Shown piece by piece: positions 24,247 through 63,208 of a DNA stretch of 64,000 bases. Origin of the DNA: Lunularia cruciata (Eukaryota > Streptophyta > Marchantiopsida > Lunulariales > Lunulariaceae); NCBI GenBank assembly GCA_948567375.1, contig OX419755.1, positions 20,104,517 through 20,168,516 on the forward strand, written 5' to 3'. Numbering within the stretch: the first letter of the stretch is position 1; each line of letters opens with the position of its first letter. Below the pieces are notes generated by a model. The model was not told the DNA's origin. It was given only the letters and a program-made list of their open reading frames with translations, and did not search any database. The position numbers and the translations under genes were made by a program.

Positions 24247-24248
24247 AT

Positions 24249-27620: not shown

Positions 27621-27939
27621 GGCCCTTGAGAGCAATAGTGTTTTAGCCCCCGACCACTAGAGATCCCAACCTCTATGTGAAAAATTTTCTCCACTTTGGT
27701 TTCAAGCTCCAGATGTTGTCTAGCAAGAATCCCAAGTAGACCAAGGGTGTAATCCAAGTAGCCCACGCTCACCTGGATGGACTCCAAGTAGACCACTCTC
27801 CCTAGTAACTATTGGTTGTGTCCCAAGAATACCATGTCCACTTGGTCCACCACCCCTAGCATGTGCTTGAATCGTCTTGATAAGCATATGGCTCACAAGT
27901 GTCCAAGTGGTGATACCTATCAAGCGCATCCTATGCTAC

Positions 27940-29428: not shown

Positions 29429-30395
29429 CGAGCTATCAGTTGGGCGACCAGGCTGAACCTAGATAACAAGTTGCTCATGCGTGATGTACTATGTAGAACC
29501 ACCACCTAGAGATATTTGGATCTAAAATGGAAACTCTTCACATCGGTCTTTTATAACTAGACCAACAACTACAACCTTTCCCAACATAAGGGGTTGCATA
29601 CCAAAGTCAAGTAAGACCCTCTATGGTGTATAAACCTTCCCTAAAGGTCCCACCAAATGAAAAATCCCCTTTTGGTTATCCAACAAGACAACACTAGGTG
29701 TAAATTGCACTCGCTCAAAGGCCGGTCTAGTTGGTAACTCCTCCAATCTAGCTGTTGCTGCATGCCACAAACCACTGGTCACTGGGTGAATCCCATGCTC
29801 CTCAACCAAGTCAACTCCACCATTAACCACCTTTGCTCTAGTAGTGGGGAACACATCATATTTACCTTCATAAAGCATGGTAGCCAACCAAAACACTGGG
29901 GCTAGGTCAACTCCCAATATACACATGTCATTGGTTAAAAATAAAGGACAGTGCATAATCAGCTGAGTCGCCCCCAACATCGTACTAAGTCGGTGTAGTA
30001 GCAGGTAGCTGACTAGTAGATAGAACATCATGCACCCCATCACTACCTACCACACTTGCACTAGCACATCTAGGAGCCATGGATGATGTTTGTAAGGCCT
30101 AAGAGAGTCTGAAAGACTAAGGAAGTCTGACCTGTCTCCCAACCTCTCCTCTTTGTGGGTCCAACTCCATTGATGCTCCTCTAGGCTCTAGAGCACGTAT
30201 TGCACTCTTAGTCATTACGTTGGAGGCATCTACCTGTGCTGCTCCGCACATGAAATCCAAAGGCATCTCTATTACCAACATATGAGGTGGAAGCCTCATC
30301 ACCTAAATCTGATCTCCTCTGAGCTATGGCCATGCTAGCCAATCTTGGCTCCAATTGCTCAATGCAAGTAGTCATAGCTATATTAGAAGTAATGG
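29429..30395 (-). pseudogene. End of gag and aspartic protease of the old element
   Basis: The minus-strand frames at 29621-30043 and 30117-30426 align with the gag tail and protease of the younger copy (for example ASMAIAQRRSD, GEVGRQVRLP, ELPTRPAFERVQFTP). The TAG after VRLP and the TAG after the PF of the protease are shared with the younger copy. The match stops at about 30395, in the middle of gag, where the sequence flips to the plus strand. Confidence 0.75.
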
Positions 30396-30538
30396 CATAA
30401 ATTGAGAGTGTTAGTGGTATCTCCAAGACTTGCTTATCATTGGTAGCTCAATCAAAGTTCAAGTATTCCCTAGTGTGCAAAAGCTCATTTGATTAGTGTA
30501 GATTTGGCAATGAAGCAGACGGTGTCCAAAAGCGTTGG
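30396..30538 (+). mobile_element. Flipped leader of the methyltransferase element (left piece)
   Basis: From TTGAGAGTGTTAGTGGTATC on, this 140-bp piece matches the plus-strand leader at about 56022-56160 (shared GGTATCTCCAAG, TTCCCTAGTGTGCA, GGACGGTGT-like strings). It ends where the nested chromovirus LTR starts. Together with 37750-39780 it is the inverted 5' part of the old element. Confidence 0.75.
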
Positions 30539-31278
30539 TGTAATACCAAGAGCTAGCCATATGATCTAGATGTGAAATTTGGTTTGGTAACATCTAGAAT
30601 GATGTTATACATGATGGTCAAAATAGATAAGATAGAAGTATCACCAAAAGAGTACTTCTACTAATAGTGCAGAAACCAAAATAAACTTGAGAACCTTAGA
30701 ACCTATAGCTAGACATATGATTTGAAGGTGAGAATTGATTTGGTAACATCTGGAGGGATGTTACATATGATGGACTAAACAGATCAGAAAGAGGTATCAC
30801 CAAAGGGGACTTCTACTAATAGAGTAGGAACCGAAATATACCTGAAATCTTTGAAGGCAATTTTGGAGGCCTAAACGGATGAATTAGGCCTCAAAAATGT
30901 GCAAATTCCCCCCCCCCCCCAAACAAAGGAAAGGCTGACCTTCACTCCTCTTTGCTTTGTCTTGTCGAGAGCTTTCCAACGGTACCTTACGTGATTTTGA
31001 GATTCCTACATGAAGATTCCCTAAAAGATTCCATCTGGTCAAAGCTTGTTTGACCAACCAGATAAGACCTAGACCAAACATGTCACCCATCCAAGTAAGT
31101 AATCCAAGGGTGGAGCTTGCTGACATATCACCTATATGTGTCCCTAATCCTATGGTGGAGCTTCCTTGGAGGAGATCCTTTTTTTCTATATAATAAAGAG
31201 AAGGTGCTCCCTTGGGGCATCAAATGTTTGAGTGTGCAATACGTGTTTTCTCTCTTCTCTTGTACTCGGAGTATTCCA
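30539..31278 (+). repeat. 5' LTR of the nested chromovirus
   Basis: This begins TGTAATACCAAG and ends at TATTCCA just before the primer-binding site, about 740 bp. The first 665 bp align with the 3' copy at 37085-37749, with roughly thirty differences by eye, mostly transitions. It has a run of a dozen Cs near 30908 and a TATATAATAAAG box near 31188. Confidence 0.85.
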
Positions 31279-31279
31279 A

Positions 31280-31291
31280 TGGTATCAAAGC
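31280..31291 (+). other. Primer-binding site (initiator tRNA-Met type)
   Basis: TGGTATCAAAGC lies one base after the 5' LTR end. The usual plant version, complementary to the 3' end of initiator tRNA-Met, is TGGTATCAGAGC, so this differs at one position. It primes minus-strand DNA synthesis in this element class. Confidence 0.75.
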
Positions 31292-31425
31292 GAGTGTTTT
31301 AGTCCAAGAGAGTGGATTACCCCTCTTGGAATATCATGAACAATTGAAACTGAGTAATTTGAGGTGGAGAACATAGAGTAGTTGCTAGACTTAGGAAGGA
31401 CTTTAGAGAGCGGATGGGATGGATT

Positions 31426-32050
31426 GTAACACCCATTTGTGCATGTGTGTGGTATTTTGATATTTAACTTGGTATTACAAGTACTTAAGAGATATTATTT
31501 ATATAGAGATAAAGGATGGTTCTATATTAGTCATGGTTAGCTAAAGTTAGTCATAGCTAAGATAGAGGGGACCTTACTTTAGAGGAAGTAGAAAAGATGA
31601 GCACCACTATTTTGGATTTTAGTGTGTTGACTTGGTATTATTCTTAGGTGTTTGGCTTTGAGGAAAGAGTTGAGAACTCTTGGGCCGCAAGCCTTTTTGT
31701 TTTGGATTCTTCTTTAGTCCAAGGATAGCCCATGTGAAGGAATCCTTGACTTAATGGTTGGGTCAAGATAAGACCACATGCTTAGGGGAATATGCCCATG
31801 TGAATGGATATTATTTTATACTTTTTGACTTTACTTGACTTTTAATCTAGTAATTTGAATTACTATGGTAATTTGTAACTTTGGTACGTAACCATTTCAC
31901 AAGTATATAAACAAGGAATGAGGAGGTACTCATCATCCTTTCATTTGCAACTATCTCTCTCTCATTGAGTTCTCTAGTGAGCAATGTCTTGAGTCTTGGA
32001 GTGTTAGCCTTGGAGGAGTATGATGGAGTTCGGGTTCCTTGCCTTCTTAG
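31426..32050 (+). repeat. Possible solo LTR or LTR-like segment inside the chromovirus leader
   Basis: The stretch opens with TGTAACACCC, a common start of plant gypsy LTRs. It has a TATATAAA box near 31902 and ends around TAGTCCA followed by TGGTGCGCTACC, which could pass for a primer site. I found no second copy in the window and no target duplication, so a nested solo LTR is only a suggestion. It could equally be ordinary leader sequence. Confidence 0.3.
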
Positions 32051-33665
32051 TCCATGGTGCGCTACCATAATAGCCATCAGAGGTTCATCCTGAGTGAGAG
32101 ACAGGCCAGCTCACAGGATGCACCGGGAGGACAATTTCCCGCACCTAGTTTTCCATTCTCAAACCCATTTCACATCAAGGTTATGCACATCCAGCGTGAG
32201 CAGATGAAGGTATTGCTAGGTTATCACTTTGGTGCAGAATTCATGGACAGAGTGATGAACTCACCAAACTCGGTGATTCTACCTCTGGTGATATATGACA
32301 GAGAGTGGGATTTGACAATCTACATTCTATTATGATAATATGGATATGAATGTCCCAAATCCTCTCCCTTTCAACACTCAAGTAGAAATCCGTTATGTAG
32401 TGAGGTCAAAAGTGATGTGTAGAGATTTTGTGGTTAGGAATTTTGGTGAGGAATATTATCAACGAGTGATAGCTTTTGAGGTCCTAATGGTAGTTCCGAT
32501 AGTTCACGAGCCTTCCAGAGTGATTATATTGACTCTGTATTGAAGTATACATTAACAATTAAGTGTTGCAAGAACCATGGATCCGTAATTGCAAGAGTTA
32601 GTGCAAGGAATGCAAGGGATGTTGAATGAATTTTGAGAGATTAAGATGACCATAGAGACATTACAAAGTCAAGTGCAGATCCTCAGGAATGATCAAACCA
32701 TGCAAGAAGAAGAGCCATCTCAAAACCCAGTACCTACGACTTAAGTACTTGGAGAGACACCCGTACCTACGAACCCTATCAATGATGAAACCACATTGCT
32801 ACTGTGGATGAAGAAGACCTGCAACATCGAGCCTTACAAGGGACAGCGTACGATGGGAGTAGTGGAAAATTGGATCTCGAGAATGAATCGATATTTCAGA
32901 TTGTTCTCAACAGAGATCACAGAGCATGCTACAGGCGTGTTTGCATGTGGGTACTTGACCAATAAAGCACTCACATGGTATGATGCTTGGGAACAATCCA
33001 TGCTAGCAGAGAGAAGGGAGGTTATATGGACAATAATGCAAGAAGGACTGTTGAAGAATTTCCAATCGGTGGATTTTGTGCAGATGGCTTGAACCCGACT
33101 GTGGAGATCGAGACAAAAGAATAGCATACAAGAGTATGTGGAGGCATTTCTGGATCTACAAGTTGCAATTACCGACATGAGTCCAGCAGAGGCTCTCGAT
33201 AATTTCAAATGAGGGTTGAAAGAGCGGATTCGCCAAGAAGTCATGGTGCAAAATCCTTGCATGGTATTTGAATCCATTGCTTGTGCGCAAAGAATAGCAG
33301 GAGCATTAGATGGAGGTGAAGGAGTAGTTCCACCTCAACATTATCGGGCAGAAATGCCACACATGGGTGGACCAATACCGATGGAATTGGGCAACTTTCG
33401 ATTTTGGGATCGAGGAGCACGACCGCTTCAAGGAGAGCGGGGACGGGTAGAAGAACAAAGAGATGGAGTCCTACAAGGAGAAGGGACTTGAGGAGAACAA
33501 CCCCGTTGTTACATTTGTGGCCGTATTGGGCACATATCTACCAACTGTCGCACTCATTTCCCTAGAGGCCCTTGGCCTTCATACATGCAATCTTTGAACA
33601 ACATGGAGAGGCACATTGAAGAGGAGGAAGTGGAAATCACTTTGAAAAACGAAGATCGTCAGTAA
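32051..33665 (+). pseudogene. Gag of the chromovirus, with an unexplained upstream coding-like part
   Basis: From about 32796 the frame shows a retrotransposon gag capsid pattern (NKALTWYDAWEQ, then EEYVEAFLDLQ-like sequence) and a canonical CX2CX4HX4C zinc knuckle, CYICGRIGHISTNC, at 33507-33548. Stops interrupt it at several points, for example after FVQMA and after NFK. The preceding frames at 32054-32543 look coding-like but I cannot assign them. Confidence 0.7.
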
Positions 33666-33739
33666 ATGTACCTCATGGCCTTATTGGCTCAATAAGGAAG
33701 CAGAGAAGCGAGGGAAGGAAGAAGAATAATGCACAAAGA

Positions 33740-34130
33740 TCCCAAAAGGCAACCTCACAATTGATTGTCGTGAATGGAATCCTAGAAGGTAATCAAGTGA
33801 GAGTATTAATAGATCCGGGAGCAACAGAGAATTTCTTGTCTCGCTCTGTTGCAATAAGATTGGGAATGGATCTAGAGAGAGATGGAAGTGAACAAGTAGA
33901 GTTACCAAATAGGCAAAAAGAGAGGATTGAATCATTACCTTGACGGATAACCCTCTTTGTAAGAGAATATCAGGAAGCAATTGAGTGGCGAGTGATACAA
34001 TTAGCTTGTTATGATACAATTTTAGGTATGCCATGGATGAAGCAGTACAACCTTATGGTGGATTGGAGGAAGAAAGTAGTGAGAACACACCAATGGTCAA
34101 TCATTGGGGTTAAAGAAAAATCACACAAGT
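33740..34130 (+). pseudogene. Aspartic protease of the chromovirus
   Basis: The open stretch contains VLIDPGATENFLS, where the retropepsin active site (normally DSGA or DTGA) reads DPGA, and a downstream ILGMPWMKQY motif typical of gypsy proteases. A TGA falls after ESLP. The active-site Ser-to-Pro change (TCG/TCA to CCG-type) suggests loss of function. Confidence 0.7.
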
Positions 34131-34189
34131 AGAAACTACCTCTATATGTCATAGGGACGGCAACTATTTGTAAGACCGATAGATGTTTT

Positions 34190-35640
34190 ATGGGTCTAAT
34201 AAGAGAAGTCCAAAGTGCACAACTCGATGGAAAAATTCTTGAGAAATTGAAAGATGTGGTGGATGAGTTTCAAGATGTCTTTCCCGATGATCTACTCTCA
34301 GAATTACCACCAAAAAGCCGAGTAGATTGCAAAATTGAGACACTCCCGAGGAAGAGACCTCCTTGTAAGGCCCCATATCGCCTATCACCTCATGAGTTAG
34401 AGGAGTGTAAGACTCAAATTGAGGAGATGCTGCAGAAAGGGTTCATCCAGCCTAGCATATCACCATATGGGGCCCTTGTCTTGTTTGTGAAGAAGAAGGT
34501 TGGTACAATACGCATGTGCATTGACTATCGGGGTCTCAATCAACAAACAATGAAGAACAAATATCCCTTACCTCGCATAGATGACCTGTTTGATCAACTC
34601 CATGGAGCGAGATACTTCACCAAACTGGACTTGCGGAGCGGTTACAATCAAATCCAAATTGCGAAGGAAGATATGTACAAAACTGCCTTTCAAACCAAGT
34701 GGCCACTTTGAGTATCTTGTGATGCTTTTTGGCCTCACCAATGCACCTACCACTTTCATGAGTCTAATGAATGACATATTTTGTCCATACTTGGATAAGT
34801 CTATTATCGTCTTCTTGGATGATATCTAAGTATATAGTAGCACAATGACAGAACACAAACAACATCTATGAGAGGTACTCCAGATTCTAAGACAAAATCA
34901 GTTGTACGCCAAAATCTCAAAGTGTGAGTTTGGCAAGTGTGAAGTAGACTACTTAGAGCATAGAATAAGTGCAAAGGGCATTCAAGTATTGACAAATAAA
35001 ATAGAGGTCATTCAAAAATGGAGTGCCCCAAAAGATCAGACTCAACTTAAGAGCTTCTTGGGGTTGACGGGATTCTATCGTAGATTTGTCAAGGACTTCT
35101 CCAAGGTTGCACAGCCTTTAACGGCACTACTTGGCAAGGGGAAGAAGTGGACATGGGGAACTGCACAAGAGTTGGCCTTTCAAGAATTGAAGGCTGCCTT
35201 GCTACATGCACTAATCTTGAAGTGGTATGACCCAAAACGTCCAATCAAGTTGGCTACAGATGCATCAGGCATAGCAATAGGAGCAGTCTTGCAACAAGAG
35301 TGGCATGACGGATGGCATCTAATTGCATATTTCTCTCGAAATTTGTTACCGGTAGAGCGCAACTACCACACCACCAAACGAGAAGAGCTGGCCATCATTC
35401 TAGCAACCAAGCATTGGAAGCACTACCTGGGCAAGAAGGCATTTGTAGTAGGGACAGACCACAAACCTCTAGTCTACCTTGAGACGCAAAAGGATCTATC
35501 TGGTCGCCAAATTTGGTGGGGAGAGTGGTGACAATGCTTCAACATGATAATCACCTACGTGGAAGGGAAGCAGCAACTTGCATATGCATTCACGCGCATG
35601 CCAATGGCCAACAACTTGGTGGCAGAGGTTAAGATTAACC
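34190..35640 (+). pseudogene. Reverse transcriptase and RNase H of the chromovirus
   Basis: The fingers/palm segment includes [19 protein letters not shown] and [13 protein letters not shown]. After a frameshift near 34705, RT continues with [15 protein letters not shown] and the catalytic FLDD at about 34815. The connection region [18 protein letters not shown] and the RNase H start [17 protein letters not shown] follow in one open frame to 35531. One frameshift and a handful of stops break it. Confidence 0.85.
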
Positions 35641-35779
35641 CTGAATTCTGGCAAGAGATTCTAGCTGCTACAAAAACTGATCCATAGATTGTAGAAGCAC
35701 AATCATCCAAAGGTGTCACCAGCATCCAAGGACTCACCTTTTGGGATGGCAAATTATGGATCCCAAATGTCCCAAAATT

Positions 35780-36860
35780 ACACACCACCATTCTAGCGGA
35801 ATGTCATGATTTGGCTATTGTAGCTCATGTCGGAGTGGACAAGACCTTGGATGTAGTTGGCCCAAGATGAGTAATGACGTGATGGACTATGTGCGTAGCT
35901 GCCTACTTGTCAACAGAACAAAGCTTCTAATCAAGCTCTTGCAGGGCTCCTTCAACCTCTCCCCACTCCTACCCAACGTTGGGAACAAGTGAGTATGGAT
36001 CTCGTCTGTGAATTACCCAATACCACCTCAGGGTTTGACTCCATTGTGGTCTTTGTGGACCGGCTCAGCAAAATGATTCATGTACGCCCTACCACCAAGG
36101 AGGTGACCACTCCACAACTAGCTCAATTATACTTAGATGCAGTCTTTGCTCACCATGGCTTGTCTAGAGTACTCATCACCGATAGAGGCACCCAATTCAC
36201 CAGTTTGTTTTGGCGAACACTCTTTGGTTTATTCAAAACCAAGTTGGCCATGTCCACAGCTTAGCACCCATAAAAAAATGGTCAAAAAGAGCGGGCTAAT
36301 TGCACGATTGAAGACATGTTATGTGGCTTCACCTTAGAAGAGCAAGAGAGGTGGGACACCCTACTCCCGTTGGTGGAATTTGCTTACAGCAATTCAGTGA
36401 ATGCATCCACCCAGGTCACTCCGTTCTTCCTCATGTATGGTGAGCATCCCTTCACACCTTCTAGCTTGATGAAGATCCGTCTAGTGGCTACCAAGGTTGA
36501 TGCAGTCAACACATTTGTTTCTAGAATCCAACAAGGTGTGAAGAGCGCCAAACACAAATTATAGATTGCGCAAAATTGACAGAATCAGTATGTTGATGCA
36601 CACCATAGGCACATGGAGTTCAATGTTGGGGATCAAGTGTGGCTATCAACAACCAACCTCACATTAGTTGGACCTTGTAAGCTCAAACCTCATTTTATTG
36701 GGCCTTTCTTGATTCTTTGTCGCATCGGCGCTGTGGCATATCACCTTGAGCTACCACCACACATGAAGATCCATCCAGTGTTCCATGTCTCCCTACTACG
36801 CAAACATGCTCCCCGATCAGGCCAGGGTCATTCCACACAAGACATTTGACCTTGTCCGAC
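35780..36860 (+). pseudogene. Integrase of the chromovirus
   Basis: The zinc-binding N-terminus is degraded around 35790-35930. The core reads VSMDLVCELP (first Asp), VLITDRGTQFTS (second Asp) and a NGQKERAN-like Glu region in broken frame. The C-terminal module has the GPY/F-type motif FIGPFLILCRIG and ends HPVFHVSLLRKH, the usual hinge before a chromodomain. Several TAG and TAA codons interrupt it. Confidence 0.82.
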
Positions 36861-36869
36861 ACTCATTGA

Positions 36870-37070
36870 TGGCATAGAGGAATATGAAGTGGAGTGGATT
36901 CTCCAAAAACACATGCGTGGTACTCACCATCCGTGGGTGAGCTATCTAGTAAAATGGAAAGGTTACTCCCTCTATGAAGCAACCTAGGAGCCCGCTACCA
37001 ATTTGGCACATGCACTGGTGTTTGTGCAAGCATTTGAGCAACAATTGCACAATGAGTACGTTGCATCTTA
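36870..37070 (+). pseudogene. Chromodomain at the C-terminus of the chromovirus polyprotein
   Basis: After a TGA the frame continues YEVEWILQKH, then SYLVKWKGYSLYEAT and a final stop near 37068. This is a classical chromodomain (the VEWIL..., YLVKWKGY and TWEP pattern). One TAG replaces the Trp of TWEP. Chromodomains of this element class bind methylated histone H3 and direct integration into heterochromatin. Confidence 0.88.
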
Positions 37071-37083
37071 AAAGGAGAGAGGT
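37071..37083 (+). other. Polypurine tract of the chromovirus
   Basis: AAAAGGAGAGAGG lies directly before TCTGTAATACC, the start of the 3' LTR. Such a tract primes plus-strand DNA synthesis. Confidence 0.8.
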
Positions 37084-37084
37084 C

Positions 37085-37749
37085 TGTAATACCAAGAGCT
37101 AGCCATATGATCTAGATGTGAAATTTGGTTTGGTAACATCTAGAATGATGTTATACATGATGGTCAAAATAGATAAGATAGAAGTATCACCAAAAGAGTA
37201 CTTCTACTAATAGTGCAGAAACCAAAATAGACTTGAGAACCTTAGAACAAATAGCTAGACATATGATTTGAAGGTGAGAATTGGTTTGGTAACATCTGGA
37301 AGGATGTTACACATGATGGACTAAACAAATCAGAAAGAGGTATCACCAAAAGGGGACTTCTACTAACAGAGTAGGAACTAAAATATACCTGAAATCTTTG
37401 AAGGCAATTTTGGAGGCCTAAATGGATGAATTAGGCCTCAAAAATGTGCAAATTCCCCCCCCCCCCAAACAAAGGAAAGGCTGACCTTCACTCCTCTTTG
37501 CTTTGTCTTGTCGAGAGCTTTCCAACGGTACCTTACGTGATTTTGAGATTCCTACATGAAGATTCCCTAAAATATTCCTTTTGGTCAAAGCTTGTTTGAC
37601 CAACCAAATAGGACCTAGACCAGACATGTCACCCATCCAAGTAAGTAATCCAAGGGTGGAGCTTGCTAATATGTCACCTATATGTGTCCCTAATCCTATG
37701 GGGGACCTTCTTTGGAGGAGATACTCTTTGTCTATATAATAAAGAGAAG
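37085..37749 (+). repeat. 3' LTR of the chromovirus, truncated
   Basis: This is 665 bp, collinear with 30539-31203 including the C-run and TATATAATAAAG, then it ends abruptly at AAGAGAAG. The next base belongs to the methyltransferase-element leader (CTAGTTTAGAGTAGATCTTG, matching 56647 on). Confidence 0.85.
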
Positions 37750-39780
37750 CTAGTTTAGAGTAGATCTTGGTCATTGTTTGGCAAAATCTACCCATCCTAC
37801 TAGATTGTGTGCAATAGGGTTTGAGCCCTAGATCTCTAGTTCCTAGACTAGCGCCCTAGCCAACTGGTCCACCCTCACTTGTTGTCCTAGTGACTATTCC
37901 ACTATTATCTATACACTTGTAGCTTTGGCTAAGAGAGACAGTTTGATTCTATTCTTGGTGACCTTGGTAGCTTAGGACATAGAAAGGAACTCCTATTATG
38001 TCAAATGCCAAATGGTGGCAAAGTAAATCTAGTGTTGTTTTATGAGATGGAATGTTTTTGTTTAGATTTCTTGTGATTGGACTCCCTCCATTCTCTACTT
38101 CTTGTTAAACACAACTTTGTGTGAGGTGCTCTATATTTTGAGCATTGGTGCTCCGGTGTGCTCTCGGTAGTGAGGCTGGAGTGGTGACCAATCAGACTAC
38201 CTTTGTTTCTCTCCGATGAGGCAAGAAGTGATGATCTACAGACCATGAGAGTGCATATTGTGATGGTAGGTTATAGGTTTCACTTTCTCTTAGTGTAGTT
38301 GTCATAATTAGGGCTACATTAGTGGGTAGTGCTTGGTTGGTGTTGGTACTTGGTGGTGTTGCCACTTGGTGGGGTACTTGCTGTTGTGGTTTACAGTTTA
38401 GGGTTTGCAATTGGCAATTTGTGGTTATTTTGTCACAATGGAGTCCGCTGGGGATTCTAGAAGAGATAGCCTTGTAGTATGCAATGGGTTTACTCAGAGT
38501 GGTGCTCAATATCTGTCTATATCTCATGTCCTAATGAGGGAGGAGATTGACTTTAAGTAAGAGTTTGATATAGGAGCTTATTCAATTGAGAGTGCACTTA
38601 GTGTGTCCGCATCGTTATTGTGGGACATGGATGAGATTTATGGGGTCTCAAAAGGCCCTAGGCGTTGCTCTTGTATATTGGGTACCATTGAGTTGGACAA
38701 CTTCACCCAAGAGTTTGATAGTTGGTGTGATTTGCAGTAGATGCAGAACCTGACTTTGTTCACACCTTTCATTGCATGGAAGGGATTGTTTCAACACTTG
38801 GAGTGTCTGCCAATGGATGACTACCATGAATTCAAGAGAGCTCACTTGGAGGAGATTGAGTTATGGAGATAATATTGGTTTCCAAACTATATCTCCATTA
38901 TTTCATGCTTGGTTGCTAGGGGTAGATCGGCCGTACCCACGAGTTTTAGCTTGAGTAGCGTTGGTGGAGCTAGCGGAGGTGCACTAGCTGGAGATAGTGT
39001 TATTGTGAGGGGAGGTACCGCTATAGGAGGTGGTGTAATATCCCCATGTGGATTTCTTCTAGTGTTTAGGCAAAACTACCAAGGAGTGTGGACTGACAAG
39101 CTGAGGAGCTTGTAGGAGTTCCAACAAAAGATTGGAGAGAGCCTACGCAAGGCATATACTTGCATGAGATGTCTAATCAATTTCACTTAGGGAGTTATTA
39201 AGGCCCAAGTAGTCCAATTTTGGTATAGGATATTGGATAGGGAGTTGCAACATAGAGTTCATGATGCTATGTTGTTATAGGCTACTTTGCACTTTTTAGT
39301 AATGGTTGTTGGTTTGGTTGAGCGTATTGAGCTCAACATGGTAGAAGAGAGAGTGGTGACATTTGGATTTGGTAGGGAGACCTCATCCATAGTTGTGATT
39401 TCTTCTAGAGTCCAGCAGAGTGCATCATGCCTAGTTGGTTTTTGAGGACAAGGTGTATAGTCCAAATCATATGGAGCGAGTGGAGGGCCTACTGTAGCTA
39501 GACCTTTACCTTCATTTTTGGGTCTGTAGTAGGAAGTGAGTGGTGGTGTTGCTTGTTGGACTTATGGTGGACTTCATAACAAGATAGAGTGCACTTAGGG
39601 CAGCAGATCTGATACCTTTGGTGCATCACAACCAGCATAGAGGCAATGTGAGCATTGCCATAGATTTGGTCACACTAGTCACCTTGCTTTGACCTACACC
39701 TGGAGTTATAAAGTGGTAGGGCTCCTATGGCATGTGGTAGAGGAGCTCAAGGTCATGGAGGACGAGGTGCTAGAGGTGGT
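37750..39780 (+). pseudogene. Flipped leader and gag of the old methyltransferase element (right piece)
   Basis: This is collinear with 56647-58695 of the younger copy. The gag start ATG is preserved here at 38438 (ATGGAGTC), whereas the younger copy has ACG at 57342. Gag segments such as LLWDMDEIYGVSKGPRR and LFTPFIAWKGLFQHLE are readable, with stops including TAG where the younger copy has CAG. The zinc-knuckle region is degraded. The match ends near 39780, where reversed X sequence follows. Confidence 0.8.
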
Positions 39781-39802
39781 GTAATCAAAATAAAATCTAA
39801 TG

Positions 39803-40239
39803 TAATCAGTTTGGTTACACAACTCAACTCACACTCAATCAGATCAATACTTGATCTTTCACAATATAATTTGCCAACAATTGGACATTGATCACAATCA
39901 AGTCACACTCACTCTAGCTAAGAAAATCCAAGTGACGCTCGTTGACCTCAGTCCACCATAGCCAAAACTCAAAGGCTCAACATCAAAGAAGTGAGCTCTT
40001 TGGAGCTACACTTGGAAAGTATACCCCTTGGACTTGAGCTAGGTCTCAAACCTTTATGGTCCCACTAATGGCACACCCAATGGTGCAAACGGTGGGCCTC
40101 ACCATGAAGTCAATACCCCAAACACAAAATCTGACCAATGGAAAGTAGTCTATGAGTAATTGCTAAAATACCTCTAACCATTATCATTGCAACTCTAGTG
40201 TCCGAGCAATCTAGATGTGATACTACAAATGGCATGACA
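39803..40239 (-). repeat. Terminal repeat X, 5' copy of the old element (A1)
   Basis: On the minus strand this starts TGTCATGCC at 40239 and ends CTGATTA at 39803, followed by CATTAGA, the start of the internal region. The younger copy has the same X-to-internal junction (CTGATTA|CATCAG at 55987). No Y copy follows X and none precedes it. Confidence 0.78.
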
Positions 40240-44754: not shown

Positions 44755-46006
44755 CATACTGATTTGAGGTAGAAGATTATTGTACTTGATGTGAGTTGTT
44801 TGGCATTAGAGTTCTTACTCAACCAGGATTCTTGAAGTGGTGTGTTGATACCCAAAGGAGAGGATAGAGCTCATATAGAGCTTGTAGTAATTCATGGTAT
44901 ATTCTACAGCCTTGCATTAACAAGTTCATGGAGTATTGTATCACACACTTTGAGGTTGTACTTTGGACTAGTGGTCCAAAGAAGGAGGCGGAGACACTAT
45001 TGCAATCTATGTGGGATTATTGCTTTTTGCCTATAGGAGTACATAATGGATCTAGACTATTGGCATGCTTCTCCCAGACCAATGGATATATTGATGAGTA
45101 TAGAGGTTTCATGGTTAGACCTTATAGTAAGTTTACATTTCCAGGTTTATCCATTAGAGATATATTGGTTGTGGATAGTGATGCTTTACCTTATATCAAA
45201 ACTATCATCATAATGCTATACATCCTTCTACATTTCTCCTGTGTCACGCCATTTGTAGTGCCACATCTAGATGCTCGGACAGTGGAGTTCCAATGATGGT
45301 AGTTAGAGTTATTCTAGTAGTTTCTTAGAGACTACTTTCCGACGGTTAGATTTTGTGTTTGGGGTACTGACTTCACGGTGGGGCCCACCATCACTTTGCA
45401 CCGTTTGCACCATCAAGTGTGCCGTCAGCGGGACCGTTAGGGTTTCAGTGCTAGCTCGAGTCCAGGGGGTATAGTTTTGAAGTGAGCTCCAGAGAGCTCA
45501 CTTCTCTGATGTTGAGCCTTCGAGTTCCTGGCTATGGTGGACAGAGGCCGGCGAGCGTCACCTGGAGTCTCTATGCTTGAGTGGGTGTGGCTTGACTGTA
45601 ATCAGTGCCCAATTGTTGGTAGTTTATAGAGTGACAGATCAAGTACTGATCTGAGTTGAGTTGAGTTGAGAGTGGTAAACAATCTGATTATTGTGGCACT
45701 TTAGAGTCTATGTATGACTTACGTGTGAGTTGTGCTTCTATAGTGTATGATGTTGACAACAATGTATGTTGTGTAGCAATGTATATACGCATGACACCCG
45801 TCAATAAATTTAGTACTTCATATACTCCATTGTTAGATATCCTTGTAACTCCTCTAGACAGATTTAGAGCTTCTACATATTTAGCTATTAGGTTTTCAGA
45901 GGAGGAATGGACCTCAAGTAGATTTAGAGATTATAGCTTGGACCCTTTTGATTTGTTGGAAAGATGCTTCCATGAGCTGGAAATGCATGCTTGTGAGAGG
46001 AGATGA
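44755..46006 (+). pseudogene. FCP1/NIF-type (TFIIF CTD phosphatase-like, HAD superfamily) phosphatase relic split by a solo X-Y repeat
   Basis: Readable pieces follow the order of the NIF domain: IIVLDVSCLALEF, where the DxDG-like motif I is degraded; then a frameshift; MEYCITHFEVVLWTSGPKKE (family pattern HFEVGIWTSxxKKN); LLQSMWDYCFL; and VVDSDALPY, where DDSPYK is expected. The family dephosphorylates Ser residues of RNA polymerase II CTD or similar substrates. At 45241 the reading is interrupted by a 555-bp X-Y repeat. On the other side it seems to resume (45800-46006, TSYTPLLDILVTPLDRFRAS) to a TGA. Both motif Asp sites and the frame are damaged, so it is not functional. Confidence 0.5.
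45242..45796 (+). repeat. Solo X-Y terminal repeat of the methyltransferase element family
   Basis: X is 45242-45690 (TGTCACGCCATTTG to CTGATTA) and Y is 45691-45796 (TTGTGGCACTTTAG to GCATGACA). The termini are inverted (TGTCAxGC / GCATGACA). The flanks CCTG and CCCG could be a 4-bp target duplication with one mutation. Internal sequence is absent, so this is the usual product of recombination between repeats. It defines X-Y as one unit with outer borders. Confidence 0.78.
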
Positions 46007-55537: not shown

Positions 55538-55987
55538 TGTCATGCCATTTGTAGTTCCGCATCTAGATGCTCGGACACTGGAGTTTCCAGTGATGGTAGT
55601 TAGAGTTATTCTAGCAGTTTCTCAGGGACTACTTTCCGACGGTTAGATTTTGTGTTCAGGGTACTGACTTCACGGTGGGGCCCACCGTCACTTTGCACCG
55701 TTTGCACCGTCGAGTGTGCCATAAGCGGGACCGTTAGGGTTTCAGGGCTAGCTCGAGTCCAGGGGGTATAGTTTTGAAGTGAGCTCCAGAGAGCTCACTT
55801 CTCTGATGTTGAGCCTTCGAGTTCCTGGCTATGGTGGACAGAGGCCGGCGAGCGTCACCTGGATTCTCTATGCTTGAGTGGGTGTGGCTTGACTGTAATC
55901 AGTGCCCAGTTGTTTGCAGTTTATAGAGTGACAGATCAAGTACTGATCTGAGTTGAGTTGAGTTGAGAGTGTTAAGCAATCTGATTA
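55538..55987 (+). repeat. Terminal repeat X, 5' copy of the younger element
   Basis: This is 450 bp from TGTCATGCCATTTG to CTGATTA, then CATCAGAGAAG starts the internal region. It matches 45242-45690 almost base for base and the reversed copies at 39803-40239 and 23797-24246. It is CpG-rich compared with the old copies, in line with younger age. No Y follows or precedes it. Confidence 0.85.
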
Positions 55988-57341
55988 CATCAGAGAAGTG
56001 AAGTCAGGAGGAAATCAGGTGCAGGAACGTTGAGTGTTGGTGGTATCTCCAAGCTCGGTGGATCGTGGTAGCTCGATTCAGGTTTTGTGTTTCCCTAGTG
56101 TGCAGAAGCTTGTGTAGTTGATGCAAATTTGGCAGTTAGGCGGACGGTGTGCAGAAGCGCTGGCCAAATTTTGAGCAAAGAAGGAGCAATTTTAGAGCAG
56201 TGTTGTGATTTTGAGCTCAGGAGGTGAAGGCATGACCAATTTGCTGCGAGTTGGGCTCAGAAAGTGAAATTGAAGGTAGAGTTGGAAGCTCTTCTCATAA
56301 AATTGTGATTTGGAAAAACCCGTTTTGTCAATTTGGCTCGAGTGGAAAGTTAGCGGGGGATTTGGCGGACATCCATCTATAGGGTTTACGTCAGATTTTG
56401 GGCCAGAATAGGAGGAGTTTCGCTGTTTGGCCAGATTTGGAGAAATTTTGCTAGTTTGGAGGAGTTTCGCAGATTTGGAGAAGTTTTGCCAATTTTGGAG
56501 GAAGTTCAAAGTGGCAACAAGAAAGGCCTCATTTGGCTGAATTAGACCCGTTTAGAGGCTTCGAGGCAGAGGGCTGTGGGCTATGAGAGGCTACGAAGGC
56601 CTAGAAGGGCCAGAAGGGCCAGCAAGCCAGCTTGCTGGCGTGAGGCTAGCTAGTTTAGTGTAGATCTTGGTCATTGGTTGGCAAAATCTGCCTTTCTTGT
56701 TAGATTGTGCACAACAGGGTTTGACCCCTAGATCTCTTGTTCCTAGACTGGTGACCTAGCCAACTGGTCCACCCTCACTTGTTGTCGTAGTGACTGTGCC
56801 ACTGTTATCTATACACATGTAGCTTTGGCTAGGAGAGGCAATTTGATCCCATTCTTGGTGATCCTGGTAGCTTAGGACTTAGATACGAACTACTCTTATG
56901 TCAAATGCCAAATGGTGGTAGAGTCAGTCTCGTGTTGTGTTATGAGATGGAGGGTTTTTGTTTAGATTTTTTGTGATCGGATCCCCTCCATTCTCTACTT
57001 CCTGTTTGTGCACCACGTTTGTGTGAGGTGCCCTGACTTTTGAGCGTTGGCGCTCTGGTGTGCTCTTGGTGGTGAGGCTGGAGTGATGACCAGTCAGACT
57101 ACCTTTGTTTCTCTCCGGTGAGGCAGGAAGTGATGACCTGCAGACCGTGAGAGTGCGTGTTATGATGGCAGGTTATAGGTTGCCCTTCCTCTAGTGTAGT
57201 TATCTTGGTAGAGTTACATTAGTGGGTGGTGTTTAGTTGGTGTTGGCACGTGGTGGTGTTGGCACTTGGTGGGGTACTTGCGGTTGCGACTTGCGGTTGC
57301 AGTTGGTGGTTTGGGTTTGCTATTGCAGTTACGTGGTCACG
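55988..57341 (+). other. Leader of the younger element
   Basis: Non-coding region between X and gag. TGGTATCTCCAAGC at about 56039 resembles a Met-tRNA primer site in its first seven bases (TGGTATC) but lies about 50 bp after X, not adjacent. The block 56165-56646 is absent from the old copy because of the chromovirus-linked deletion. GGGCCAGAAGGGCCAG-like strings recur near 56600. Confidence 0.6.
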
Positions 57342-59003
57342 ACGGAGTTCTTTGGAGATTCCAGAGGAGTTAGCCCTGCAGTACGCAGTGGGTTTACTCG
57401 GAGTGGTGCTCGATATCAGCATGTATCTCAGGTCCCAATGAGGGAGGAGATTGACTCTGAGTTGGAGTTCGACACAGGAGCTGATTCAGTTGAGAGTGCA
57501 CTTGGTGTGTTTGCACTGTTGTTGTGGGACATGGACGAGATTTATGGGGCCTCCAAAGGCCCTAGGCATTACTCTGGTATAGTGGGTACCATTGAGTTGG
57601 ATGACTTCATCTAGGAGTTTGATAGTTGGTGTGATTTGCAGCAGATGCGGAACCCGACTTTGTTCACACCCTTCATGGCATGGAAGGGGTTGTTTCAGCA
57701 CTTGGAGGGTCCACCGATGGATGACTACCATGAGTTCAGGAGAGCTCATTTGGAGGAGATTGAGTTATGGAGACAGTATTGGTCTCCACACTATGTCTCC
57801 ATCACTTCAGGCTCGGTGGCCAGGAGTAGATCGGCTGTACCCACGAGTTCTAGCTCAAGTAGTGTTAGTGGAGCTAGTGGAGGTGCACTAGCTGAAGATA
57901 GTGCTACTACGAGTGGAGGTACCGCTGCAGGAGGTGGTGTGGTACCGGGGTTTAACCCCATGGTTGAGTTCTTCCTATGTTTGAGGCAGAACTACCAGGG
58001 AATGCGGACTGACAAGCTGAGGAGCTTGCAGGAGTTCTAGCGGAAGGCTGGAGAGAGCCTACGCAAGGCATACACTCGCATGAGGCGGCTGATCAGTTTC
58101 ACTCAGGGAGTTACTGAGGCCCAGGCAATCTAGTTTTGGTATGGGATACTGGACAGGGAGTTGCGACGTAGAGTTCGTGATGCTACGTTGTTGCAGGCTA
58201 CTTCGTCCACTTTGGCAGTAGTCTTTGGTTTGGCTGAGCGTATTGAGCTCAACATGGTGGAGGAGAGAGTGGTGACATTTGGATTTGGTAGGGAGACCTC
58301 ATTCATAGCTGTGACTTTTGCTAGAGTGCAGCAGAGTGCACCACGCCCAGTTGGTTTTCGAGGACAGGGTGGACAGCCCAGATCCTATGGAGCGAGTGGA
58401 GGGCCTAGTGGAGTTAGACCCTTACCCTCATTTTCGGGTCAGCAGCAGCCAGTGAGTGGTGGTGTTGCTTGTTGGACTTGTGGTGGACCTCACCATAGGA
58501 GAGAGTGTACTCAGGGCAGCGGACCTGATACCTCTGGTGCATCACAGCCAGCACAGAGGCAGTGTGAGCACTGCCACAGATTTGGTCACACTAGTGACCG
58601 GTGTTTTGACCTACACCCGGAGTTACGGAGTGGTAGGGCTGCTATGGCAGGTAGTAGAGGAGCTCCAATTCATGGAAGACGAGGTGGTGGTAGAGGATCT
58701 ACACCTAGTAGGGGTGCAGTACCTACCCTTACTTCTGACACAGCTATGGCTACTCAGATTGAGCAGTTGGAGCAGAGATTGGCTAGTATGGCTATTGCTC
58801 AGAGGAGATCAGATTCGGGTGCTGAGGCTTCCACCTCATATGCTGGTGATAGAGATGCTTTGGACTTCATGTGCGGAGCAGCACAGGTGGATGCATCTGC
58901 AGTAGTGACTAGGAGTGCAGTACGTGCTCCAGAGCCTAGAGGAGCATCAGTGGAGTTGGACCTACAGAGAGGAGAGGTTGGGAGACAGGTCAGACTTCCC
59001 TAG
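57342..59003 (+). pseudogene. Gag with two zinc knuckles (younger element)
   Basis: The frame begins at an ACG (57342) where the old copy has ATG. Another in-frame ATG lies upstream at 57237. The capsid-like part includes LLWDMDEIYGASKGPRHYSG and FFLCLRQNYQGMRTDKLRSL. Two nucleic-acid-binding knuckles follow: CWTCGGPHHRREC (spacing slightly short) near 58473 and the canonical CEHCHRFGHTSDRC near 58564. TAG codons occur at 57612, 58038 and 58131; the old copy has CAA at each. A TAG at 59001 after GEVGRQVRLP is shared by both copies and may be the real end of gag. Confidence 0.82.
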
Positions 59004-59880
59004 TCTTTCACGCTATCTGAGGCATTGCAGACGACCTCCATGGTTCCTAGACGTCCCAGTGCAGGTGTGGTAGGTGGTGATGGAGTACATGATGGAGTAC
59101 CCACTAGTCAGCCACCTGCTACTACACAGACTGAGTCTAGCATGATGTTGGGGGCGGCTCAACTGATTATGCGGCATCCTTTATTTTCAGCCAGTGACAT
59201 GTTTACATTGGGAGTTGACCCAGCCCCAGTATTCCGGTTGGCTGCCACGTTGTGTGAGAGTAGGGATGGTGCAGTTCCTACTGCTAGAGCAGAGGTGGTT
59301 GGTAGTGGAGCTGACTTGGTTGAGGAGCATGGGATCCGTTCAACGACCAGTGGTTTATGGCAAGCAGCAGCGGCTAGACTGGAGGAGTTGCCAACTAGAC
59401 CGGCCTTTGAGAGAGCACGGTTTACACCTGGTGTTGTCCTATTGGATAACCAGAGGGGGATCTTTCATTTAGTGGGACCTTCAAGGAAGGTCTATACACC
59501 ACAGAGAGTCTTGTTAGACTCTGGTGCGCAGCCCCTTATGTTGGGGAAGGCTGCAGTTGTTGGTCTGGAGTTACGGAAGACCGATGTGGAGAGGTGTCCA
59601 TTTTAGATCCAGACATCTCTTGGTGGTGGTTCGACACAGTATATCACACGTGGAGAGCTTGTTGTCCAGGTTCAGCCTGGTCATCCGACTGATAGCTCGG
59701 TGGTGAGAGCTCAGGCTATTGCGATGATAGCTGAGTCATATGATGTGCTAGTTGGGGGAGCAGTGTTATACCCTATGGGTTTCAGCATTGACTATTGGGA
59801 GGAGACAGCCTCTTATAGACCTGGTTGGCAGTCTGGTGAGGGACGGGTATGTCGCCTACCAGTACGCTTCAGTAGTGGCA
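59004..59880 (+). pseudogene. Aspartic protease region (younger element)
   Basis: In frame with gag. The retropepsin active site reads VLLDSGAQPLML, with DSGA at 59517-59528. The C-terminal half includes YDVLVGGAVLYPMGF near 59736-59780, the counterpart of the ILG..W motif. A TAG at 59604, inside the domain, is shared with the old copy. It would process the polyprotein into gag and enzyme products. Apart from the TAG the domain looks intact. Confidence 0.78.
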
Positions 59881-61200
59881 GTCTTGGCTCACTACAGTCC
59901 GGGACCATGGCAGCATCAGTTTTGGCTTTCAGCGGTGCAGTTACTTGGCCTGGTGACTTGTTCGAGGGGAACGCCCATGCAGAGGATACTCCAGTACCAG
60001 AGGAGATCACTCGGCTATGGAGTACGAGTGGGATTGTTCCATCCACCTTGGATGTTCCATTGTGGAGTTCAGAGGAGGCATTGCAGCAGCATGCAAATCA
60101 GTTGGTGCAGCAGGCTTGGAGTGGAGCCTTCGTACCATCAGGGGATGAGTGTGAGGATGAGCCTCCAGAGGCGATTGCTTTGACACCTCTAGATACCACA
60201 CTCATTGCTTGGCAGTATCCAGTAGAGGGGATATGCCTATTGGAGTTGTTTGGTGGGATTAGCACCGGACTAGCTGCGGTGTTACAGGCGGGTATCCGAG
60301 TACAGAGGTACTTGTATGTAGAGAGAGATGAGACTGCTAGGCGAGTCTCTCTACATCATGTGGCACACTTGGCTTATCGGTATCCGGAGTTATTACCGAT
60401 GTCATCAGTCAGAGGTTACCAGAAGGCCTTACCAGGAGACATTTCCTTACTGGGGGCGCATGACCTAGAGAGACATGGGCCTATTCACTTGGTGATTTTT
60501 GGATGGCCATGTCAGGGACATACACGTGCGGGATGCGGTTTGGGTCTTCAGGATCCTCATTCTGGTGTGTTTTGGGATATGTTACAGATATTACGACATC
60601 TCGAGGTTCATCAGTCTATTTCTCCAGCTTACCTTTTGGAGAACGTTCCTTTGTTGGGTGATTCTCGCACTAGAGTGGTGGTGAGTACACACCAGGTCCA
60701 TTCTTGGATGGGACCTGCTGTATTGTTAGATGCAGCCAGAGTGGGATCACGGGCTCATCGTCTTCGCCTTTGGTGGACGAACCTCTTACCCAGAGAGGTT
60801 CTACAGTGTGCTTATGATGGGATTCAGCGACTGGACCACATTCTTGTTGATGATATCTTGGATGTTGGGCGTCAGTCTCAGACAGTGGTAGTGGCTGATA
60901 GGTCACCTATGGTAGTGGTGAACCTAGTTGGACAACCTAGAGCTGCATTTCCTACACTCATGAGTTTCCCAAGCTCTCATGCTTTTCGAGAGGGAGGACC
61001 TGGACTTGTTTGGGACTCACAGTTACAGTAGTTGGTGGAGCCCAATGCTGATGAGAGAGAGCGGGCGATGGGTTTTCGCACCGGTATTACCACTGTTCCA
61101 GCAGTGTCAGAGGCATCCAGGCTTCAGGTGTTAGGTCAGGCTATGGACCTGAACTGTTTGACCTGGATTGTGAGCCTTGGTTTGGCAGAGCAGCGTAGGA
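59881..61200 (+). CDS. DNMT3-like cytosine-5 DNA methyltransferase within the retroelement polyprotein
   Basis: Within the frame 59700-61031, after the protease tail and a ~110-residue linker, motif I (CLLELFGGISTGLAAVLQAG) lies at about 60231-60290, followed by RYLYVERDE. Motif IV, with catalytic Cys in FGWPCQGH, is at 60501-60524 (Cys at 60510). Motif VI is YLLENVP (60633-60653) and a motif VIII-like AHRLRLWWTN follows at 60753. After one TAG (61029; Gln in the old copy), motifs IX-X continue: RAMGFRTG, then SRLQVLGQAMDLNCLTWIVS to 61193. The motif I, IV and X flavour matches DNMT3/DRM-type enzymes in linear order, so it transfers methyl from S-adenosylmethionine to cytosine. In the element it could methylate its own DNA copies. 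Target preference cannot be read by eye. All catalytic residues are present. Confidence 0.85.
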
Positions 61201-61622
61201 TGCGCTTGATAGGCATCACCACTCGGACACTTGTGAGCCCTGTGCCTATCGAGACGATTCAAGCACATGCTGGGGGCGATGGACCGAGTGGACATGGTAT
61301 TCTTGGGACACATCCAGTAGCTACTAGGGAGAGTGGTCTACTTGGAGTCCATCCAGGTGAGCGTGGGCTACTTGGATTACACCCTTGGTCCACATGGGAT
61401 GCAGCTAGAGGACGTATGGAGCTTGCAGCCAGAGTGGAGGAAGTTTTTCACACAGAGGTTGGGACCTCTAGTGGTCGGGAGCATGACACCATTGCTCCCA
61501 AGGGCCCAGTGTAGTAGCCAGTCAGTACGTCTTCCACTCCTACTATAGTTATAGAGGATACTTGGGAGCCAGATCTTGGACCCAAGCTTACTGGAGAGGA
61601 AAGACGGAGGGTTTGGAGGTTC
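61201..61622 (+). other. Linker between methyltransferase and reverse transcriptase
   Basis: In frame with both neighbours. It contains RLIGITTRTLV and a GLLGVHPGERGLLGLHPW internal near-repeat. Two consecutive TAG codons sit at 61512-61517; the first is shared with the old copy, the second is CAG there. No domain is recognised. The shared TAG at this junction might separate the upstream proteins from RT, or simply be an inherited mutation. Confidence 0.6.
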
Positions 61623-62560
61623 TTGAGGAGTCACATGAGTTGTTTTGCCTTCAGTATGAAGGATTTGGGTGCTCTGAAGGGACCTGGTATACGGATTGAG
61701 CTGACTAGCGACACACCTGTTTTCCGACGTCCTTATCGATATAGTGATATGGAGAGGACATTGATTCAGAGCCGCAGTAGTGACATTTTTGAGGCTGGTT
61801 TGGTGGAGATTTCACATGGAGAGTATGCATCAGCGACAGTGATGCCAGCCAAGAAGGATATGCATGGCAACTATACAGATAGGCGGATGTGTGGAGATTA
61901 CCGTCCTATCAACCGACAGACCAACGCTGATCGGTATGCCATGCCTACACCGGAGGAGATTTTTGATGCGATTGGGCATGCAAAGGTCTTCAGTACTTTG
62001 GATCTTCGAGCGAGATATCATCAGTTGCCGATCAGGGAGGAAGATAAGTCCAAGACAGCATTTTGGGCTATTGATCCTCACGGCAAGGATGTGTTATATC
62101 AGTGGAGGTTCTTACCATTTGGGTTGAAGAATGCTCCTGCTGAGTTCCAGAGGGTCATGGATAGGATCCTAGCTGGATTGGATTTTGCTCGATGTTATAT
62201 TGATGACATTTTGGTCTATAGCACTACTGTGGAGGAGCATGAGAGACAGTTGTTGGAGGTGTTTGAGAGGTTGAGATCTCATGGACTCAAACTACATCCT
62301 GGGAAGTGTAGGTTCTTCCACGAGCAGGTTGAGTATTTGGTCACACTATCTACCCCGGAGGACTTGGTGTTCAGCAGACCAAGGTGGAGGCTATTGCATG
62401 TATTCCTCGGCCTACGGATGTGAGCAGAGTGCAAGCATTCCTTAGGTTGGCGAACTTCTATCGCCGCTATGTTAGAGGATTTAGTGCCATTGCCAAGGCC
62501 TTGACAAAGCTGACCAAGCTTACACATGAGTGGTGTTGGGGAGATGAGTAGGAGAGAGCT
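61623..62560 (+). pseudogene. Reverse transcriptase (younger element)
   Basis: The gypsy RT motifs run in order: MCGDYRPINRQT, FSTLDLRARYHQLPI, FLPFGLKNAPAEFQ and the catalytic CYIDDILVYS (YIDD at 62196-62207). Near 62340 one G is missing relative to the old copy (TTGGTCAC against TTGGGTCAC), which shifts the frame and ends it at 62423. The connection domain (NFYRRYVRGF) continues in the next frame. Apart from this deletion the enzyme looks complete. Confidence 0.88.
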
Positions 62561-63208
62561 TTTGTAGAGCTCAAGGAGAGGTTGACATCTGCTCCTACTT
62601 TGAGGAGACCGATCAGGGGACGACCATTTCAGGTTCACACTGATTGGAGTATGTTGGGGCTTGGAGCGGTGCTCACCCAGCATGATGATGAGGAGAAGGA
62701 GTTTGTGGTGGCCTATGCTAGTCGCTCCAACAATTCAGTGGAGGCGAAGTATAGTTCATATGAGGGAGAGTGCTTGGCAGCAGTTTGGGCAATAGCACAT
62801 TTCCGATGTTACCTATTTGGTAACCCCTTCACTCTCATCACTGATCATCAACCGCTGAAGTGGTTGATGGAGTCCGACAAGCTTTCAAGGAAGCTTGCAC
62901 AATGGGCTCTGATTTTACAGGAGTATGATTTCATGGTTGTTCATAGACCTGGAGTGGTGAACCGTGATGCATATGGGTTTAGTAGAAACCCATGTCCCAG
63001 CCAACAGGATCAGACCGGAGCACGTTGGCATGGTGAGACATATGAGGAGATGGTGCCAGGTTGGCATGCATCGGCCTTTCTGTGTATATTTGCAGAGACT
63101 TTGGTGGTATCTCTCTCTCAGCGCATACAGGAGGAGTTATTGAGGTCACAGATTCAGAGAGTGAAGATATTGGTACAGTTCAGCGAGACATTCATGATGA
63201 TGTCTTAG
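62545..63208 (+). pseudogene. RNase H and tether region (younger element)
   Basis: In the shifted frame, after a TAG at about 62549 (CAG in the old copy), the RNase H domain starts with FQVHTDWSMLGLGAVLTQ (first Asp at 62642) and includes SRSNNSVEAKYSSYEGECLA and LITDHQPLKWLM. Then comes the tether HRPGVVNRDAYGFSRNP. A 2-base gain in a TC run near 63115 moves the frame again before the integrase. Confidence 0.82.

Follow-up and report, generated by a model that had tools for sequence, protein, structure and literature searches.

A DNMT3-type cytosine-5 methyltransferase in a Ty3/gypsy retrotransposon family of the liverwort Lunularia cruciata

Why would a retrotransposon carry a DNA methyltransferase of its own? 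The question is raised by a locus in the liverwort Lunularia cruciata, a species with a large genome and bursts of Ty3/Gypsy elements (PMC9985172). The stretch of DNA analysed here, called the window, comprises 64,000 nucleotides of contig OX419755.1, and all coordinates below refer to it. The original prediction, made from the letters alone, placed a DNMT3-like methyltransferase between the protease and the reverse transcriptase (RT) of a gypsy element near the right end of the window.

The methyltransferase occupies positions 60222..61200 of the forward strand. The open reading frame at 59607-61031(+) matches the C5-cytosine methyltransferase domain PF00145 (E=4e-6, above the Pfam cut-off), and the full motif set that had been predicted is present, with motifs I to X placed in order: LFGG at 60246, WPCQ at 60504, ENVP at 60639, SRAH at 60747, DERERAMGF at 61050, and VLGQAMD at 61128. 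In a sequence search of the PDB, DNMT3A, 3B or 3C account for the best 29 of 44 chains (top E 3e-7), followed by HaeIII (E 0.1) and then 4onj (E 0.2), a chain named ‘DNA methyltransferase’ that we take to be a DRM. A profile built from 25 relatives plus the window’s own sequence, 26 in all, and run against PDB chains scores DNMT3A at 4e-20, 4onj at 2e-6, M.HhaI at 3e-5, DRM2-named chains at 4e-4, and DNMT2 at 0.03, with no DNMT1- or CMT-named chain among its 56 matches. Structural comparison agrees. The AlphaFold model of a relative (P0001) has a mean pLDDT of 56.5 over 726 residues; of the 33 ten-residue blocks that make up its methyltransferase part (residues 341-670), 26 have pLDDT values of 71-91 and seven of 39-67. 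DNMT3 entries fill the best 50 structure matches listed for this model (E 3e-17 to 6e-15, identity 20-23%), with TM scores on the target of 0.74-0.83 for DNMT3 catalytic-domain chains. All six motifs (I, IV, VI, VIII, IX, X) are found in 23 of 185 retrieved relatives, a set that includes 56 proteins shorter than 300 residues, and their order is unrearranged in all 23; WPCQ or WECQ is kept in 104 of the 185, fragments counted.

Plant DRM2 is also a C5-methyltransferase of the DNMT3 branch. DRMs, however, have a circularly rearranged motif order (PMC5890265), and because motifs I to X of the element run in order, its domain is not a DRM; the much weaker profile scores (4e-4 for DRM2-named chains and 2e-6 for 4onj, against 4e-20 for DNMT3A) also reject a DRM origin. 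A bacterial origin is rejected by the score of M.HhaI (3e-5 against the same 4e-20). In the comparisons made, the domain is by sequence nearer to DNMT3 than to DRM, DNMT2 or bacterial enzymes. It has the catalytic fold and motif order of animal DNMT3A/3B/3L in common, but carries PCQ where DNMT3 has PCN, and Pfam scans of window pieces and relatives found no PWWP or ADD domain. The profile searches that might have removed the domain from the C5-methyltransferases thus confirmed one of DNMT3 type, and it is predicted to methylate DNA.

The element that carries this domain is about 9.9 kb long, extends on the forward strand from 55538 to some 1.46 kb beyond the window end, and is flanked by 4-bp AGAG duplications. 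Its left end is a repeat, X1 (55538..55986, beginning TGTC), with the target duplication just outside it and a second repeat unit, Y, absent after it. The candidate Gag part of ORF1 (57237..59390, from the list of open reading frames) contains two CCHC knuckles, seen by eye in the translation, in a frame broken by stops, and is followed by an aspartic-protease-like part (59391..59856) with DSGAQP at 59517. Neither part has a Pfam match in the window copy, and both are named from motifs and relatives: PF00098 is annotated in P0087, P0091 and P0093, PF13650 is annotated in P0027, and the protease parts of P0116 and P0143 match weakly, below the Pfam cut-off. Downstream of the methyltransferase lie a stop that is shared among copies of the family and separates DNMT from RT (61512..61520), RT itself (61518..62423, PF00078, E=1.4e-29), RNase H (62552..63208, PF17917, E=5.6e-36), and an integrase with an H2C2 zinc domain and rve core, matched by Pfam, that starts at 63046 and continues past position 64000. 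The next 1.46 kb beyond the window end hold a PHD finger, repeats Y1, X2 and Y2, and the right end with its AGAG duplication. These domains bear out the assignment to Ty3/gypsy. The predicted location between protease and RT also holds, as the protease-like part and RT flank the methyltransferase in one frame; as a correction to that picture, stops occur at 61029-61031 and 61512-61514. X1 and X2 are 98.2% alike, yet the window copy is decayed, because the in-frame stop at 61029-61031 sits inside the methyltransferase domain; ORF1 has stops and there is a frame change between RT and RNase H. Searches of the window for tRNAs and for Rfam families (gathering score) returned no match.

Retrotransposon-borne methyltransferases are known from charophytes and dinoflagellates, as the original prediction stated, in the form of KnitGypsy-Dnmt3 and SymbioDIRS-Dnmt3 (PMC5890265), and a survey of 2025 describes DNMT3s embedded in streptophyte and dinoflagellate retrotransposons (PMC12344493). 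The closest description is that of KnitGypsy-Dnmt3 from Klebsormidium nitens (de Mendoza et al., 2018; PMC5890265), with Ty3/gypsy domains, an unrearranged intronless DNMT3 in the polyprotein, a DIRS-like repeat order A-coding-B-A-B, and purifying selection. The liverwort element likewise combines a gypsy RT-RNase H-DDE integrase, an intronless in-frame DNMT3, and A-coding-B-A-B repeats; the comparison is by description and not by sequence, and the host here is a land plant. SymbioDIRS-Dnmt3 of dinoflagellates shares a DNMT3 within a retrotransposon and the A-coding-B-A-B order, but is a DIRS element with a tyrosine recombinase (PMC5890265), in contrast to the DDE integrase and 4-bp duplications of the liverwort element. 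With the Lunularia element, a liverwort joins the hosts of Ty3/gypsy retrotransposons that bear a DNMT3, a kind already known. New here are its host range, the context of a leaky stop, a PHD finger, and a palindromic joint; the last three are liverwort features that were not found described for KnitGypsy-Dnmt3, and the words ‘PHD’, ‘readthrough’ and ‘chromodomain’ have no occurrence in the main text, figures apart, of the paper on that element (PMC5890265).

Protein searches, which scored only the candidates sharing most words, returned at least 103 and at least 342 relatives (120 of the latter listed), both lower bounds. They come from Marchantia polymorpha, Calypogeia fissa, Riccia sorocarpa, three Sphagnum species, and Closterium; many others are metagenome proteins, and no Klebsormidium-named sequence is among the matches listed. 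One M. polymorpha relative (P0104, 1278 residues) has all six motifs. In a tree of 90 rows, with DNMT3A as the far row and the bootstrap not settled, the two copies in the window pair (100/100) inside a bryophyte set of Calypogeia, Sphagnum and Marchantia, with Closterium outside; Sphagnum and Marchantia are grouped at only 95/74, a weak departure from the host tree. Two far-apart subfamilies of methyltransferase elements occur in the same tree within a single liverwort genome, that of Calypogeia fissa (P0157 and P0002). Viral contigs yielded no relative in one scan and six weak matches in another, and a scan of genome contigs yielded five loci, four in Streptomyces and one (L001, 1-9285) that is a complete-looking eukaryotic element whose ends overlap by 127 bp, although it was assigned to a cyanobacterial metagenome bin. 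L001 and P0048, which is filed under Obscuribacterales, both look like contamination. Among the titles and abstract openings listed by literature searches, which took in few subscription papers, none reports a methyltransferase-bearing gypsy element in a liverwort or moss, and neither of the two titles listed for a PHD finger on a gypsy integrase concerns one.

How common the family is in its host was assessed by searching the 566-Mb assembly with the methyltransferase ORF and scoring the best 90 of 15343 first-look candidates. All 90 carry the domain, at 95-96% identity (100% for the window itself), over all 474 residues of the query in 87 cases and 473 in three. Because only the best 90 candidates were scored, this figure is a lower bound, and because the query was the methyltransferase ORF, the count covers domain-bearing members only. 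A one-off insertion is rejected by these at least 90 matches. The genome-wide count of intact copies proposed in the original prediction gives 50 of 90 scored matches with no stop in the matched stretch (hand count, window copy included), with open frames of up to 1448 residues. Among 30 copies compared, mean mutual identity in the methyltransferase is 98.2%, and 13 are stop-free from the query start to the junction with RT.

The ends of the element are unusual for a gypsy retrotransposon. All 19 fetched copies begin with X at the 5′ end, and no Y follows it in any of the 12 copies with a whole X1 (seven of the 19 stretches end inside X1) or in either window copy. At the 3′ end, 16 of the 19 carry Y-X-Y, as does the window copy. 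This layout, X-coding-Y-X-Y, rejects an ordinary LTR element with the same whole LTR at both ends. A DIRS retrotransposon with a tyrosine recombinase is rejected by the rve and H2C2 integrase and by 4-bp target duplications, found around 15 of 16 X...Y-X-Y copies and both window copies. Identity between X1 and X2 is 97.5-99.6% for 15 of 16 copies, some of them compared across a part of X1, and 89.9% for the remaining one. The X2|Y2 joint reads CTGATTATTGTGGC in 15 of 20 3′ stretches (changed in two, not found in three), and is identical to the X end, as bounded by the leader (CTGATTA|CATC), fused to the start of Y, as bounded by the polypurine tract (GCGA|TTGTGGC). The Y|X joint reads CACGACAGCTGTCACG in 14 of the 20 (changed in three, not found in three) and holds the palindrome GACA-GC-TGTC. 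An exact copy of CACGACAGCTGTCACG lies in noncoding sequence of L001, where three NNCA-NN-TGNN palindromes are found against 0.44 expected by shuffling. The simplest reading of these repeats is that the ends of a linear DNA with Y-X LTRs would be joined into a two-LTR circle, which would then be opened at the palindrome. Cutting each strand just after CA would leave 2-base 5′ overhangs, the form used by retroviral integrases, and a ‘circle junction’ route of integration was once proposed for retroviruses. The Y|X palindrome also contains CAGCTG, in which either strand offers a CHG site, and the proposed cut site of the integrase could therefore be affected by host methylation.

The older copy that had been predicted on the opposite strand, with the same arrangement, was recovered at 23676..40239(-), with the 5′ X1 at 40239-39803, Y1-X2-Y2 at 24341-23676, and a target duplication AACA. 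It aligns with the young copy (58726-64000) at 85% identity, its X1 and X2 are 83.6% alike, and it contains a decayed DNMT domain at about 27929..28907(-), limits set by alignment offset, and the end of an integrase ORF with a PHD finger (24536..24856(-), PF00628, E=2.5e-5). The copy is split by another LTR element at 30539-37749, a gypsy element with two whole 666-bp LTRs that are 95.8% alike and with no methyltransferase seen among its ORFs. A block from 30406 to 39769, the 5′ part beside the left repeat together with this nested element, is inverted as one, and such an inversion beside a terminal repeat is what self-integration would leave. Next to the right end of the old copy, positions 23193-23796 are palindromic, with the X end, Y2, and about 35 bases repeated inverted, and a solo X-Y repeat of the same family (TGTC...GACA) lies at 45242..45796(+).

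The old copy also preserves a record of past methylation. If the young copy is taken to represent the ancestral sequence, the old one has lost 35-41% of CG, 32-36% of CHG and 10-11% of CHH cytosines, compared with 4.7% for A>G/T>C. Losses of this kind are typical of DNA that plants methylate at CG and CHG, and they do not reveal which enzyme placed the marks; at CHG sites the decay falls only a little short of that at CG, which the host’s own enzymes explain, a point against methylation by the element itself. Such heavy past methylation is what would be expected if the enzyme served self-restraint, marking new copies for lasting silencing and sparing the host and thereby the element. We consider this unlikely, as host RdDM could do the same and the many young copies, with X1/X2 97.5-99.6% alike in 15 of 16, indicate that amplification has not been restrained lately. 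The same abundance of recent copies, at least 90 in number, would fit an escape from control, in which the DNMT acts on the host genome and blurs or floods its methylation marks until silencing no longer singles out the element, an effect discussed for Symbiodinium by de Mendoza and co-authors (PMC5890265). Against such an effect, fusion of the DNMT to Gag-PR points to a particle rather than a free nuclear enzyme, the old copy shows at CG and CHG the decay typical of silenced plant elements, and the Klebsormidium methylome is described as plant-like despite that alga’s own element (PMC5890265); action on the host genome is accordingly improbable in our estimation.

Where the enzyme may reside is suggested by the stop that follows it. 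A stop occurs at codon 635, between methyltransferase and RT, in 27 of 30 genomic copies, and the junction was not found in the other three. Its position at the same codon in 27 of 27 copies with a junction rejects decay as its cause. The context is UAG-CAG-CCA in 26 of the 30 copies and in the old copy, UAG-UAG-CCA in the window copy, and UAG-CAA-UCA at the corresponding place in L001. All except that of the window copy fit UAG-CAR-YYA, the leaky-stop consensus of tobacco mosaic virus (TMV) (PMC2754532); given a stop, CAR-YYA follows by chance once in 512 with even base use. Among the 23 six-motif relatives, 19 end 72-128 residues past motif X, counted to record ends rather than to stop codons, and the other four end 16, 30, 42 and 503 residues past it, the last being a gene model (P0112) that continues into RT. 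From this context, the family seems to make Gag-PR-DNMT and, via readthrough, RT-RNase H-integrase-PHD as well. Readthrough has been proposed for the rice gypsy element RIRE2 too (PMC2754532). In the liverwort element the stop comes after protease and DNMT. The Klebsormidium enzyme is placed in the Pol polyprotein ORF (PMC5890265). A stop after the DNMT with occasional readthrough means that the enzyme would be made in Gag amounts and should enter the particle.

Both copies in the window are broken in the domain, as a captured, functionless gene hitchhiking on a successful element would be. Nonsynonymous to synonymous differences (N/S) between them, set against a context-matched neutral expectation, nevertheless amount to 0.56 for the DNMT (73 N and 60 S differences, with 18 stops; P 0.0005), similar to RT (0.60, P 0.0005) and to the Gag tail plus PR (0.59, P 0.0005). 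The linker gives 0.70 (P 0.07), and clear constraint is absent from RNase H (0.95, P 0.34), integrase (0.76, P 0.10) and the post-DNMT tail (1.19, P 0.70). Across 30 genomic copies the methyltransferase stands at 0.50 for rare and 0.51 for shared variants (P 0.063), PR plus linker at 0.57 and 0.21, the tail (28 copies kept) at 0.65 and 0.35, and RT (25 copies kept) at 0.65 and 0.46; this test is biased toward synonymous differences because the copies were picked by protein score, and even the tail falls below 1. Between far relatives (P0104 and L001), identity is 49% in DNMT, 45% in PR, 25% in Gag and 17% in the linker, which makes the DNMT the best-conserved part of ORF1 in this alignment. 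A domain that changes less than Gag, shows a synonymous excess between the window copies (P 0.0005), and is found in hosts from Closterium to liverworts and moss is very hard to reconcile with a mere passenger.

The second domain of interest is the PHD finger at the integrase end. A pattern search locates it in 16 of 20 3′ stretches, 15 of them stop-free and the window copy with one stop, and three of the four stretches without it also lack the Y-X-Y end. Pfam detects it in the old copy and in the Marchantia protein P0026, and a PHD finger ends ORF2 of L001. Among the best 60 of 96 matches to solved structures, CHD4, Cph2 and PHF12 rank on top, and the others include UHRF1, KMT2C/D, KDM5A/B, PHF21A, DPF2/3, ATXR5, BAZ2 and AIRE. 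Several of these proteins read unmodified H3 tails. The zinc ligands of the element’s PHD are present, and its similarity to such readers predicts H3K4me0 binding. In animal DNMT3, an H3K4me0 reader (the ADD domain) accompanies the writer; the element differs in that its putative reader and its writer lie on two polyproteins.

These features can be combined into a scheme whose steps we infer. ORF1 would be translated into Gag-protease-DNMT, and readthrough of UAG-CAR-YYA would add RT-RNase H-integrase-PHD. Reverse transcription would produce linear DNA with Y-X LTRs, the ends of which would be joined to a two-LTR circle; the integrase would then cut one LTR at GACA^GC^TGTC and insert the element with a 4-bp duplication, giving X-coding-Y-X-Y. 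The DNMT, packaged with the particle, would methylate the double-stranded DNA de novo before or during integration, so that a new copy arrives marked, and the integrase PHD may steer insertion to chromatin without H3K4 methylation. This whole scheme from readthrough to PHD, in which particles carry the DNMT and the element’s own DNA is methylated by it prior to integration, strikes us as about evenly poised between right and wrong.

A role other than DNA methylation, in which the domain would bind or methylate RNA or the primer tRNA, or would serve the particle as a chaperone of nucleic acids, is suggested by its position adjoining Gag and protease, and by the DNMT of KnitGypsy-Dnmt3, which gave no methylation in yeast, a result its authors call inconclusive (PMC5890265). 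The yeast result also weighs against the scheme above. The retention of the catalytic WPCQ/WECQ motif in 104 of 185 relatives, fragments included, and the nearest solved sequences being DNMT3, with DNMT2 far behind (4e-20 against 0.03), make such a role a poor prospect. The DNMT of SymbioDIRS-Dnmt3 has been shown to produce CG methylation in yeast (PMC5890265).

Within the reading of a packaged enzyme that methylates the element’s own DNA, a more specific version is possible but rather doubtful. Integration would proceed from the two-LTR circle by a single staggered cut at GACA^GC^TGTC inside the LTR, which would produce both recessed CA ends at once, with the DNMT marking the circle as it waits in the nucleus and the PHD reading H3K4me0. 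Marking of a circle would explain why elements with split repeats have repeatedly come to carry DNMTs or adenine methyltransferases (DIRS, SymbioDIRS-Dnmt3, KnitGypsy-Dnmt3 and the liverwort family); SymbioLINE-Dnmt is an exception to this pairing. If both the circle and the PHD reading are true, a DNMT3 writer and a histone reader would be divided between the two polyproteins of one element. The context of the leaky stop and the split repeats thus point to a possible place for the enzyme, the particle, and a possible substrate, the circular DNA intermediate. DNMT-bearing gypsy elements now extend from an alga with few copies to land plants, including Marchantia, with many young copies in a liverwort host, and their presence in Marchantia makes what a retrotransposon gains from its own DNA methyltransferase testable in a genetic model.

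Elsewhere in the window, positions 5462-7417 encode a CLASSY/CHR35-like SNF2 protein, a host gene of RdDM whose nearest matches, in Marchantia paleacea (63%) and M. polymorpha (60%), point to a liverwort host, and exons resembling a GDSL lipase were recognised by eye at 17813-19170.
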